This document shows positions 34,040-54,070 of a DNA stretch of 64,000 bases, piece after piece. Numbering within the stretch: position 1 is the first letter of the stretch; the number at the start of each line of letters is the position of its first letter. This DNA is from Erinaceus europaeus. Taxonomy: Eukaryota > Chordata > Mammalia > Eulipotyphla > Erinaceidae. The stretch covers positions 57,613,296-57,677,295 of the forward strand of contig NC_080164.1 in the NCBI RefSeq assembly GCF_950295315.1. Direction: 5' to 3'. The translations under genes were made by a program, and so were the position numbers. The notes under the pieces are model-generated. The model did not search any database. It saw only the letters and a list, made by a program, of their open reading frames with translations, and was not told where the DNA came from.

Positions 34040-34860
34040 CACTAGTCCTTTTGGAAAACCATATTGAGAGTTCTTAAATAAAAATCAAAATATTTTATGA
34101 TTCACCAATGACATTCTTAGGCATTTATCCAAAGGACTAGAAAACACTATTTTGAAAGGACATATGGACCCCTATATTCATCCTGTATTGTTCACAGACT
34201 AAATCTCTATCAACAGATGACTGGATAAAGAAGTTATGGAATAGGGGCCAGGTGATCATACAACTGGTTAAGTATATACTTTACCATGCTCAAGGACCTA
34301 GATTTAAGTCACTGATCCCCACCTACTAGGGCGAAGGGAGCCTTGAAGCAAGTACTGCCTATGTCTCTGTTTCTCTATATCTCCCTCTCCTCTGAAATTC
34401 TCTCTATTCTGTCACATAAAAAATTAAAAAGAGGGAAAAAATGGCCACTAGGAGCAAGGGATTCATTGTGCAGACACCAAACTCCAGTGATAAGCCTAGT
34501 GGAATATTACTCTCATTGTAAAGAATATGGAAGTCCTGCATGAGTAAAAATGAAAGGAGCATTCTACAAGAATCAGGCCAAGGTGACTGAAAATATGGGT
34601 AGAGACTCACTTCTAAATAGGGGTTGAAATAAAAATAATATAGAATCAGTGCATCATGAACAAGAATGGCTATATTTCCTCTTAGATAGACTTTGTGATC
34701 TGATACTACTGTCCTTAAAATTGTGTAAATGGGTAGGATTACATCTTGATTAAAATTTTCAGTTCTCTACAGGTTGAAGACTGACGGCTCAAGTCACTCT
34801 GTAGAAAAGGTGGCTAATTCAAACTTAATAAAATTTTCCCACTTGTTTAGAAAAACACTG
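34040..34860 (+). mobile_element. L1 ORF2 C-terminal fragment interrupted by a SINE-B
   Basis: 34040-34243 and 34501-34650 are consecutive ORF2 C-terminal segments on the plus strand. Beyond about 34650 the similarity becomes uncertain. Confidence 0.55.
34244..34500 (+). mobile_element. SINE-B, long form with 3' extension
   Basis: SINE-B head and body (ggccaggtgatcatacaact; 'gccttgaagcaagtactgcc'), A-rich linker, then the extra module 'atggccactaggagcaaggg' to 'ccagtgataagcctagtgg'. Confidence 0.8.
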
Positions 34861-34865
34861 TCTTC
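34849..34865. repeat. 17-bp target duplication of the compound insertion, left copy
   Basis: AGAAAAACACTGTCTTC here and AGAAAAACATTGTCTTC at 38402-38418 (16 of 17 identical) enclose SINE-C, Vingi and SINE-A together. Confidence 0.9.
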
Positions 34866-34939
34866 GGGCAGGGGTAGATAGCATAATGGTTATGCAATGA
34901 GACTCTCATGCCTGAGGCTTTAAAATCCCAAGTTCAATG
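34866..34939 (+). mobile_element. SINE-C, left part (interrupted by Vingi)
   Basis: The head 'gggcaggggtagatagcata' runs to 'cccaagttcaat'. The SINE resumes at 38018 with 'ccataagccagagctgagca' and ends in poly(A) near 38064. Compared with uninterrupted copies, about 11 bp (around CCCCTGCACCA) is missing at the break. Confidence 0.9.
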
Positions 34940-35008
34940 GGATGCATTGGATCGACCTTCCTGTGGTGCATCCCGTGAGTACCCATTCATTGGGGAAACT
35001 GACGATTC
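34940..35008 (+). ncRNA. Candidate HDV-like self-cleaving ribozyme at the Vingi 5' end
   Basis: Pairings read by eye. P1: 34940-34945 GGATGC with 34968-34973 GCATCC (a seventh pair, 34946-34967, is possible). P2: 34949-34954 GGATCG with 35003-35008 CGATTC (one G-U). P3: 34955-34957 ACC with 34965-34967 GGT, with a 7-nt L3 (34958-34964). P4: 34982-34985 CCCA with 34991-34994 TGGG. J4/2 contains C34999-T-G-A immediately before P2', fitting the C-N-R-A pattern of HDV-like ribozymes, so C34999 is the candidate catalytic base. Cleavage would fall just before G34940, the first base of the element, which is what such ribozymes do in R2, RTE and trypanosome ingi/L1Tc-type elements. Weak points: P1.1 supports only about one G-C pair, P4 is short, and J4/2 is slightly long. 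Confidence 0.6.
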
Positions 35009-35029
35009 TTCCTAGCCAACTGAATCCAC

Positions 35030-36679
35030 ATGGATCCCAGTCACTTTCAAAGCCAGCAACAAGCAGCTCCTGACAGCTTTCAAGCTGTTGGTCCTGCTCT
35101 TCGAGTCCTCCAACTTAATGTTATGGGGCTTTCCTTTGCCAAACGCGTTCTTATTGGTCAATTGGCTATACAGCATCAGGCAGATGTTATATGCCTACAA
35201 GAAACACATATAGCAGTCGATGAAGCTGCTCAATTCACCATCAGTGGATTCGATTTAATATGCTATAATCTCCATCCTAAACACAGCCGAGCCATCTACG
35301 CCAAATCGTATCTTGCAGACGTTTACCATACGGCCTCTTCGACCTTCTACGACTCCATTACTATTGGAACTATTCAGCTCGTCAATGTATATAAGCCTCC
35401 CAGTGCCTCATGGGATAATGAGGTCCTGCCTAGCCCGAATCACCCAGCCATTTACATTGGAGACTTTAATAGTCATCACCAAGACTGGGGATATTCCTCC
35501 ACTCGTGCTGACAGCTCTATCTTGGCAGACTGGGATTCAGCGAATGACCTCTCCCTATTATACAATCCCAAACAGCCAGGCTCTTTTCACAGTGCTAGAT
35601 GGAATAAAGACTCGTCACCCAACCTGTGCTGGATTAGCACAGTCAACGGCCAAGCCTTTCCCGCTATGAGACACGTTCTCAAGATCTTCCCGCACAGTCA
35701 TCACCGCCCAGCTATCATCCACATTGGTCTCCAGCTCCCACTGATTCTGTGCTCAGAGAAACTAAGATGGAACTTTCGGAAAGAAAACTGGCATCTGTTC
35801 AGTGATCTTACCAACAAATCTATTCCTGCAATTCCAATTAACTCTATCCCCTCTGAAGATTCCTACAGGCGCTTCCGCCAAGCCATCTTCAAAGCAGCTT
35901 CCCAAGCTATTCCTCGTGGGAGACGTGCTAACTATATGACTTGTCTTGATGCTGAATGTGAGCAACTACTAAAGCAGTATGATGAGTCGGGCGACCCAGA
36001 TGTGGCCAACCATCTCATTCCCTCACTGGATGCAGCACACCAAGCCCACTGGCAACAACTCACGGAAAGTCTGAACTTCACCCACTCAAGTAGGAAGGCC
36101 TGGAAGCTTCTTCATAGTCTGGGTGCTGGTAGCCAACCCTCTCCCGTCTCCCATCCTCCCGTATCTCCAAACTCAGTGGCCAGTCACCTAACTCAAGTTG
36201 GACGTGCTAAAATCGACCCTGTCTGGAAAAGAGAAATTTCCCATGAGTGGTCATCCCACTTCCATTTATCTTGTCCATCTCCAAAACTCTCTCCCTTTAC
36301 ACTGTCTGAACTGGAAGACGCTTTGAAGAGGGTTAAACCGGGAACGGCTGCTGGCTATGATAACATCACCCCAGAATTCATTCTTAACTTGGGCCCCGTG
36401 GCAAAGAAGTGGCTCACTACATTCCTGTCCCACATCTTGGAATCTGAATCTATGCCCAAAATATGGCGTCATGAGAAGATAATAGCAGTTTTGAAATCAA
36501 AGAAAGACCCAACACTGGCAGCCAGCTATAGACCAATTTCTCTCCTCTCCGTGTGTTACAAACTCCTTGAGAGGCTGCGTCTGTCACAAATTTCTCCTCT
36601 TACAGAGAAATTGCTATCACCCGCCCAAGCTGGTTTCCGCCCAGGAAGATCTACCTGCGAACAAGCCCTGGCCCTCTGA
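35030..36679 (+). pseudogene. Vingi ORF, N-terminal part: endonuclease and start of RT (549 codons, ends at an in-frame TGA)
   Basis: APE-type endonuclease signatures occur in order: L-N30, Q-E58-T, N-V-Y-K-P-P (119-124), G-D145-F-N147, S-P-N (196-198) and H-S-H-H-R-P (222-227). In related endonucleases S-P-D and S-D-H are usual at the last two sites, so the third residue of S-P-N may be a damaged catalytic Asp. RT domain begins near 430: 'VKPGTAAGYDNI' (435-446), 'SYRPISLLSVCYK' (499-511), 'QAGFRPGRST' (533-542). TGA at 36677-36679 stops it; the same frame then continues through RT motif A. The start is the first ATG after the candidate ribozyme and is shared with the deletion derivative. 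In an active element this protein would nick target DNA and prime reverse transcription there. Confidence 0.88.
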
Positions 36680-38010
36680 ACTTACATTGAAAATGGATTC
36701 CAGAAGAATTTAAAGACAGGTGCTGTCTTTGTTGATTTCATAGCAGCCTATGACACGGTCTGGCACCATGGTCTCCTAGTCAAGATCTCTAGATGCCTGC
36801 CTCCATGGGTGGCCAACACTATATTGTTTCTTCTCAAAACAGAAGATTCCGGGTGCATCTGGGTGACAAGTCTAGCAGATGGAGACTTGTCTCAAGTGGC
36901 CTCCCCCAGGGCTCTGTTCTGGCTCCTATGCTATTTAATATTTACATCAATGACCTCCCAGAAACTTCTTCAAGGAAGTTCATCTACTCCAATGACATCT
37001 GCTGTGCAACTCAGGCATCCAAGTTCGAAATCCTCGAGGAAACACTAACGAAAGACATGTCTCTGATATCTGATTACTGTAAAAAATGTCGACTAATCCC
37101 TAGCACTGCAAAAACGGTATCATCTGTTTTCCATCTACACCATGCCTCGGTCTCGCGTGAGCTTAATGTGCAGCTTGACGATACGAGAATCCGGCATGAA
37201 GCCTAGCCAGTCTATCTTGGCGTTACTCTCGATCGCACTCTGTCATTTCACGAACATCTCATAAAAACTGCAGCAAAGGTGGGCGCGAGGAATAACATCA
37301 TTGCAAGACTGGCCAGCTCCTCATGGGGCACGAGCACTTCCACACTACGATCATCATCTCTGGCATTATGCTATTCCACTGCAGAATACTGTGCCCCAGT
37401 ATGGTTCCGTAGCCCCCATGTCCACTTGGTCGATTCCAAATTATATTCCTCCATGAGGATAATTTCTGGAACCATCCATTCCACCCCGGTTCCATGGCTG
37501 CCAGTTCTTAGCAACATCACCCCGCCAGATATTCGTCGGGATGCGGCATCATCTAAGTTCATTTCCCACGTCTGCGCTCAACCGGACCTGCCAATATACG
37601 CAGATATCTTTGCCCACCCAGTTCAACGCTTGACATCTCGTCATCCAATCTGGTCTCCTACGCCTACACTGAACTTCTCTGTTCCAGACTCTTGGTAACA
37701 GAGTTGGCAGTCAGCTGAGGTAAAGAACAAACACCTCATCACAGACCCCTGCAAGCGTCAACCCGGCTTTGACCTAGCACGTTATGATTGGGCCCTCCTC
37801 AATTGCTATAGAACAGGCCATGGCCGGTGCGCATCTATGTTCCATCGCTGGGGAACCAGAGAGGACCCGAACTGCCCCTGCGGCTACAGACAGAGTATGA
37901 CCCACATAGTCAATGACTGCCACCTCCCCAGATTCAAAGGAGGTCTCGAAACTTTACATCAGGCTCAACCTGAAGCTGTTGACTGGCTACAGAAGAAGGG
38001 CAAACGCTAG
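36680..38010 (+). pseudogene. Vingi ORF, C-terminal part: RT core, thumb and CCHC motif, frameshifted and stopped
   Basis: The original frame runs from 36680 to about 36836 and contains motif A (V-D-F-x-A-A-Y-D). Loss of one base in an A-run at about 36836-36839 moves the rest to the next frame. RT motif B region (G-L-P-Q-G-S-V-L-A-P) follows near 36906-36935. The catalytic box at 36985-36996 reads Y-S-N-D instead of [FY]-x-D-D, the first Asp codon having become AAT. Further stops are TAG at 37204-37206 and TAA at 37696-37698. A C-x-C-x7-H-x4-C motif (37873-37920), common at the C-terminus of such elements, is intact. The frame ends with TAG at 38008-38010, seven bases before the element's 3' end. 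Confidence 0.85.
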
Positions 38011-38017
38011 AAGAAGA

Positions 38018-38064
38018 ACCATAAGCCAGAGCTGAGCAGTGCTCTGGTAAAAAAAAAAAAAAAA
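38018..38064 (+). mobile_element. SINE-C, right part with poly(A)
   Basis: 'ccataagccagagctgagca' and 'gtgctctggt' followed by A15. Completes the SINE-C that begins at 34866. Confidence 0.9.
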
Positions 38065-38087
38065 TGCCCTGTTTTTTTTTCCCCCAA

Positions 38088-38401
38088 GGGTTTGTTGGGG
38101 CTTGGTGCCTGCACTATGAATTCACTGCTCCTGTAGGCTTTTTTTTTTCCCCCTTTTGTTGCCCCTGTTGATTGTTGTTATTATTTCTGTTATTGCTGTC
38201 GTTGTTCTTGGATAAGACAGAGAGAAATGGAGAGAGGAGGGGAAGACAGAGATGGAGAGAGAAAAGACACCTGCAGACCTGCTTCACCACTTGTGAAGTG
38301 ACTCCCCTGCAGGTGCAGAGCTAGGAGCTTGAACAGGGATCCTTACCCTGGTCCTTGCAGGTTGCACCATGTGCTCTTAACCCGCTGCAGTACTGGCCCA
38401 C
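38088..38401 (-). mobile_element. SINE-A, long form, inserted at the SINE-C tail
   Basis: Minus strand: extension at the left (ttggtgcctgcactatgaat), linker with (TTG)n, 'gagaggaggggaagacagag' body, and a head ending 'gctcttaacccgctgcagta'. It lies inside the 17-bp duplication of SINE-C (right copy 38402-38418), so it entered the SINE-C tail later. Confidence 0.9.
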
Positions 38402-38418
38402 AGAAAAACATTGTCTTC

Positions 38419-53851: not shown

Positions 53852-53864
53852 AAGGTATAAGACA
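53852..53864. repeat. 13-bp target duplication of the Vingi derivative, left copy
   Basis: AAGGTATAAGACA here and at 54058-54070, identical. Confidence 0.95.
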
Positions 53865-53933
53865 GGATGCATTGGATCGACCTTCTCATGGTGCATCCTG
53901 TGAGTACCCATTCATTGGGGAAACTGACGATCC
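53865..53933 (+). ncRNA. Candidate HDV-like ribozyme in the Vingi derivative
   Basis: Same fold as at 34940. P1 53865-53870 with 53893-53898; P2 53874-53879 GGATCG with 53928-53933 CGATCC, here fully Watson-Crick; P3 53880-53882 with 53890-53892; L3 TTCTCAT; P4 CCCA/TGGG; J4/2 with C53924-T-G-A. Differences from the other copy lie in L3 (three), in the base after P1 (one) and in P2 (a G-U to G-C change that keeps pairing). Confidence 0.6.
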
Positions 53934-53954
53934 TTCCTAGCCAACTGAATCCAC

Positions 53955-54050
53955 ATGGATCCCAGTCACTTTCAAAGCCAGCAACAAGCAGCTCCTGACA
54001 GCTTTCAACCTGATGCTGTTGACTGGTTATGGAAGAAGGGCAAACGCTAG
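53955..54050 (+). CDS. In-frame micro-ORF of the Vingi derivative (31 codons), possibly non-functional
   Basis: The parental ATG is retained. The deletion joins its first 18 codons to the last 13 codons of the parental ORF in the correct frame, ending at the parental TAG. The product would have none of the endonuclease, RT or CCHC motifs; it would be a short Gln-rich N-terminus linked to a basic K-K-G-K-R C-terminus. One deletion in three keeps frame by chance, so conservation of a peptide is not implied. Confidence 0.3.
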   Translation: MDPSHFQSQQQAAPDSFQPDAVDWLWKKGKR

Positions 54051-54057
54051 AAGAAGA

Positions 54058-54070
54058 AAGGTATAAGACA
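54058..54070. repeat. 13-bp target duplication of the Vingi derivative, right copy
   Basis: Identical to 53852-53864. It directly follows the (GAA)n end of the element, with no poly(A). Confidence 0.95.

Follow-up and report, generated by a model that had tools for sequence, protein, structure and literature searches.

The 64,000-nt stretch of Erinaceus europaeus DNA analysed here, referred to as the window, carries the long copy of a Vingi-type LINE on the plus strand (34940-38018), which has both ends in common with a second copy in the same window and terminates in GAAGAAGAA at 38017 or 38018. It is inserted into a tRNA-derived SINE, and the SINEs of the window are presumably of the hedgehog type. 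Alignment with seven SINE copies of the window placed the 5' part of the host SINE at approximately 34868 to 34938 and its 3' part, including the A-tail, at 38019-38064, both on the plus strand. About 10 SINE bases are missing between the two parts, i.e. at this locus (34868-38064) the long copy replaced these bases and the target was not duplicated. The SINE head preceding 34940 was ruled out as a part of the LINE, since comparison with the other SINE copies of the window identifies it as the host of the insertion. A 17-bp direct repeat (34849-34865 and 38402-38418, 16 of 17 positions identical) brackets the SINE, the Vingi insert and a region at about 38075-38400 which may be an antisense SINE. 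This arrangement suggests nested insertions. Elsewhere in the window, a tandem repeat with a 21-bp unit and about seven copies was found at 2287-2438; between 1881 and 2714, it lies within stretches left open on both strands.

The first part of the LINE frame (35030-36679, plus strand) runs from an ATG at 35030 to a stop and encodes the endonuclease and the start of the reverse transcriptase. The 549 amino acids from this ATG gave matches to PF14529, PF03372 and PF00078 within 35030-36676, as expected for an APE-type endonuclease and a reverse transcriptase. This stop, near 36677, closes the frame, and a different frame carries the next long open stretch. For the 549-aa piece 147 homologues were found, the best five of which are 50-57% identical. 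Among the 120 homologues listed, whose named sources include Latimeria and Synaphobranchus, one partial match reached 89% identity over 22% of the query. Vingi is the sister of Ingi and is separated from it by the lack of an RNase H. No RNase H match was obtained in three translated pieces of the element, nor does the precomputed Pfam annotation show one in the listed homologues (120, a good part of them partial). We provisionally assign the element to Vingi as described by Kojima et al. 2011, a label that is consistent with the endonuclease and reverse transcriptase protein and with the absence of RNase H from the scanned pieces. Going by the title of that work, Vingi reportedly expanded recently in hedgehogs. 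Kojima et al. 2011 is cited by PMC3183009 and PMC5753468, and a table of PMC3183009 gives Vingi-1N3_EE with 311 in hedgehog.

When the element was compared with the window by BLAST, a single other 5' end came up, at 53865, with 95% identity over the first 151 bases and followed by a piece of the 3' end. This short, internally deleted and non-autonomous Vingi copy (53865-54057, plus strand) consists of some 150 nt from the 5' end followed directly by some 50 nt from the 3' end. It is flanked on the left (53852-53864) and on the right (54058-54070) by the target-site duplication AAGGTATAAGACA, a perfect 13-bp direct repeat. Such a flanking repeat is what target-primed insertion leaves. The repeat and the common first base thus fix the 5' end of the element to within one base. 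Both insertions, although situated in different flanking DNA, begin at the identical base, which is the first base of the 6-bp helix P1 of the candidate ribozyme described in the following. Of the short derivative, more than a third is ribozyme.

The candidate HDV-like ribozyme covers 34940-35008 with a P1 of 6 bp or 34939-35008 with a P1 of 7 bp on the plus strand, as judged from the sequence, descriptor scans and an Rfam comparison. Inspection and descriptor agree that 34940-35008 has the nested double pseudoknot order P1-P2-P3-P3'-P1'-P4-P2'. P1 pairs GGATGC (34940-34945) with GCATCC (34968-34973), its 3' strand extending to C34974 if G34939 provides an optional seventh pair. P2 pairs GGATCG (34949-34954) with CGATTC (35003-35008) and includes one G.U, where the second copy is Watson-Crick throughout. 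P3 (ACC, 34955-34957, with GGT, 34965-34967) encloses the loop L3, TTCCTGT (34958-34964), and P4 is a hairpin of CCCA (34982-34985) and TGGG (34991-34994). All four helices, together with the C34999-T-G-A that the earlier note had likewise read from the letters, were found in place when the sequence was checked. This CTGA (34999-35002) lies in J4/2 and supplies a candidate catalytic C34999 and the conserved, constrained A35002 ahead of P2'; the letters are identical in the 53865 copy. Further candidate active-site features lie around L3. C34960 can form a single C-G pair, P1.1, with G34975 after P1' in both copies, and a second P1.1 pair would be non-Watson-Crick. U34958 and G34963 are candidates for the reverse-wobble pair of L3. 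The short-copy ribozyme (53865-53933, plus strand) keeps the catalytic C at 53924 and has an A (53888) in place of the L3 G. That the Vingi 5' end has the potential to fold as an HDV-like double pseudoknot is near certain.

The earlier note let P1 start at the first base of the element. The 5' end of the element at 34940 is backed by the second insertion with its 13-bp duplication, while a 7-bp P1 from G34939 is an alternative. G34939 is not explained by the host SINE, since six of the seven aligned SINE copies have a C at this position and the seventh is without that part. C34974 is a possible partner for it; the short copy has A and T at the corresponding positions, which are likewise able to pair, and the Rfam alignment makes use of G34939. 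Counter to a 7-bp P1, A53864 falls within the 13-bp repeat and may belong to the flank, and G34939 could be a base added at the junction. The first base after the predicted cleavage may therefore be 34939 or 34940.

The place had been picked before any search was made, and the descriptor was written later, with the structure known. These two circumstances would favor a chance resemblance produced by looking hard at one place. The descriptor ranges are akin to those reported for R2 (P1 of 6-7 bp, P2 of at least 5 bp). With the first G required, it matched the plus strand of the 64-kb window at 34939, 34940 and 53865 and nothing on the minus strand, and it gave 4 matches when the window was shuffled 91 times and one strand was scanned (5.8 Mb). 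When the first-G rule was dropped, the only matches on the plus strand of the window were 34939/34940 and 53864/53865, i.e. both Vingi 5' ends. On the shuffled element this looser version produced 143 matches in 96.7 Mb, or about 1.5e-6 per base, and 6 of the 143, or about 6e-8 per base, also carried the three active-site letters (U and C in L3, G following P1'); with a descriptor composed after the fact, these null rates are guides and not clean p-values. A shorter run on the shuffled element gave 1 match in 1.35 Mb and none with the active-site letters. Besides these low rates, the match sits at a boundary that is fixed by independent evidence, in a kind of element known for such ribozymes. 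The descriptor match at the Vingi 5' ends is more than chance, and we regard mere resemblance as very improbable.

Rfam gave a less distinct picture. A scan of 5001 bases returned no HDV family up to an E-value of 10. In scans of 121 bases RF00094, the HDV ribozyme, was the best family for both the long copy (23.2 bits, E 0.087) and the short copy (23.3 bits, E 0.081); the gathering cut-off is 50 bits, so by the rule of Rfam neither is an RF00094 member. In both copies the alignment contains P1, with 7 bp, and P3 as proposed, and the 3' part of the model falls about 20 nt downstream of the proposed P2'. This lends weak support to the HDV-like fold class. The mammalian CPEB3 ribozyme has a similar 7-nt L3, and its Rfam family was absent from the matches of both 121-base scans. 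It is of the same fold class and likewise resides in a mammal, though in an intron of CPEB3 (PMC10919898), in contrast to the retrotransposon 5' end of the Vingi candidate.

The two copies differ in 6 of 70 columns, yet all 21 pairs can form in each of them. One pair changed on both sides (pair 1-36, G-C versus A-U) and one on a single side (the G.U of P2 versus G-C). In a control, this result was equalled by 252 of 500 shuffles; with n=2 covariation cannot be separated from chance. The change at pair 1-36 was rejected as proof of covariation, because base 53864 is part of the 13-bp duplication and could thus belong to the flank. Of the cells, 31-45% pair when the structure is slid out of register and 100% when it is in place, as is expected for a structure derived from these sequences. 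Three of the differences are in L3, where the long copy has TG and the short copy CA. CpG sites usually decay to either TG or CA. Hence, to judge from the letters, the source element probably carried the L3 G, which the long copy keeps.

The L3 G is known to form a reverse wobble with the L3 U; when it was replaced by A, a Nasonia R2 no longer cleaved, although in HDV the loss was not complete (PMC3774820). Because of the Nasonia result, the ribozyme of the short copy is predicted by analogy to be weak or dead. This bears on the view that the 5' end was formerly a working HDV-like ribozyme and that the copies of the window have decayed, a view that for the family as a whole overlaps with the explanation we prefer. 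The interrupted LINE frame, the G.U in P2 of the long copy and a very stable competing hairpin would fit such a fossil. The long copy, on the other hand, keeps all 21 pairs, the catalytic C and both the U and the G of L3, so that we hold decay of both copies to be rather unlikely. Activity of the long copy is likely, as far as can be predicted from its structure. A good fold is no guarantee of cleavage: among trypanosome SIDER1 candidates, two failed to cleave in vitro even though their folding was adequate (PMC4035085).

The competing hairpin was obtained with ViennaRNA, which draws no pseudoknots. It extends P1 into J1/2 by pairing GGGATGCATT with GGTGCATCCC, uses up J1/2 and P3', and is the minimum-energy fold of both copies. 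Its energy is -28.4 kcal/mol for the long copy and -24.0 kcal/mol for the short copy, with z-scores relative to shuffles of -3.0 and -1.8, respectively. P1, P3 and P4 together have -19.4 kcal/mol in the long copy and -16.7 kcal/mol in the short copy, and P2 as a free duplex adds -4.6 and -7.5 kcal/mol, respectively. The plain sums are -24.0 for the long copy, less stable than its hairpin, and -24.2 for the short copy, on a par with its hairpin; they ignore pseudoknot loop costs and stacking between helices and are undecisive, yet a warning for the long copy. The strong hairpin would also be at home in an internal promoter or in an element for translation or packaging, with the pseudoknot being incidental. 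The Pr77 hallmark of trypanosomes indeed doubles as an internal promoter (PMC4035085). But the hairpin alone leaves the right order and spacing of P2, P4, the CNRA motif and the L3 letters unexplained, and promoter and ribozyme can coexist, as they do in Pr77 (PMC4035085). We therefore consider it improbable that the 5' end serves these functions only. Folding further indicated that GAATC at 35022-35026, downstream of the candidate ribozyme, can pair with bases of P2'. This is reminiscent of L1Tc, in which downstream sequence attenuates the ribozyme (PMC4035085), and a similar role in Vingi is conceivable by analogy.

Several known systems resemble the arrangement found here. In R2 of Drosophila and in elements of the R4/Dong, L1 and RTE clades, the 5' junction is cleaved by an HDV-like ribozyme (PMC3774820), and the same holds for L1Tc/ingi elements (PMC4035085). 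The ribozymes of R2 share with the Vingi candidate a P1 of typically 6-7 bp, a P2 of at least 5 bp, the catalytic C, the U and G of L3 (in the long Vingi copy), and the release of the element 5' end (PMC3774820), which for Vingi is predicted. The R2 SIDEs are short deleted copies consisting of the ribozyme and the 3' end (PMC3774820), a build that they have in common with the 53865 copy. In contrast, R2 is located in 28S genes and, in the majority of the species studied, cuts inside the upstream 28S sequence (PMC3774820), whereas the Vingi copies occur in different flanks and their fold needs perhaps at most one flanking base. L1Tc/NARTc and ingi/RIME are non-LTR elements of the Ingi group with the ribozyme in a 77-nt 5' hallmark, Pr77, and NARTc and RIME are truncated versions that keep this hallmark (PMC4035085). 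In these cases the host is a trypanosomatid and Pr77 is also a promoter, while the Vingi host here is a vertebrate. The P1 of Pr77 is reported to differ from that of R2 and HDV in the orientation of the G-C pairs (PMC4035085), and the likeness drawn here between Pr77 and Vingi is one of build.

The N-termini of 17 aligned relatives yielded nothing decisive as to in-frame traces of a ribozyme. A P-A-D-x-I stretch is present in 4 of these 17 N-termini and S-A-D-Q-I in a fifth. In a manual alignment anchored on the D-P-S-H of P0001, this stretch would be encoded directly after the ribozyme (35009-35029), where an in-frame TGA (35021-35023) falls within it; the short copy has the TGA too. In viral contigs one exact pattern had no matches, and a protein-alignment scan (19 stretches) gave no relative. 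The same kind of scan of genome contigs (35 stretches) gave three relatives, L001, L002 and L003, at 26-36% identity. L001 starts too late for the whole frame, and in L002 the expected start is preceded by about 100 bases. A relaxed fold scan matched L001 on the plus strand at one place, L002 on the minus strand only and L003 on both strands. Being unanchored to an element 5' end, these matches are uninformative either way.

Taken together, the best explanation, to which we assign a probability of about 0.85, is that this Vingi-type LINE opens with 69-70 nt encoding an HDV-like self-cleaving ribozyme, which frees the RNA of the element and which short copies keep. Such a ribozyme had been proposed in the earlier note, and this structural prediction gains support from the fold, the 5'-terminal position, the catalytic-C motif, the L3 letters and the recurrence in a second, separate insertion. 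In HDV ribozyme chemistry, the catalytic C acts as general acid and the product carries a 5'-OH. The element would be transcribed from an upstream host promoter, and the double pseudoknot would fold once P2' (up to 35008) is made. C34999 would then act as general acid, and the chain would be cut just before the first base of the element, 34940 or 34939. The released RNA would have an exact 5' end whatever the flank, with a 5'-OH, and might then be translated, the open reading frame beginning 21 nt after the ribozyme, and reverse transcribed. In short deleted copies the ribozyme would be retained along with the 3' end, which the reverse transcriptase of the LINE presumably recognizes, and such copies could spread in trans in the manner of R2 SIDEs and trypanosome NARTc/RIME.

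Our literature search found no description of a ribozyme in Vingi, in line with the earlier note, which knew of none for hedgehog Vingi; an earlier mention is possible, as key papers from 2011 were outside the search. The main text of a 2025 paper on LINEs and SINEs of the African hedgehog contains neither ribozyme nor ingi, nor Vingi. The best reading of the predicted structure is that of a candidate HDV-like ribozyme akin to those of R2, RTE, R4/Dong and L1Tc/ingi, and new for Vingi. It is tempting to speculate, with the odds somewhat against it, that this ribozyme was inherited from a common ancestor of the trypanosome and animal Ingi/Vingi elements and carried into hedgehogs, where many short copies have seeded self-cleaving ribozymes across the transcripts of a mammalian genome. 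If the Vingi 5' end is indeed a ribozyme, the element could cut itself free from any host transcript around it and would need no promoter of its own, and the identical exact 5' end in different flanks would be explained. Short derivatives would gain a way to keep working 5' ends. Furthermore, the HDV-like ribozymes of mobile elements would extend to a family that reportedly expanded recently in hedgehogs, and common ancestry versus convergence of the Ingi and Vingi ribozymes becomes directly testable.
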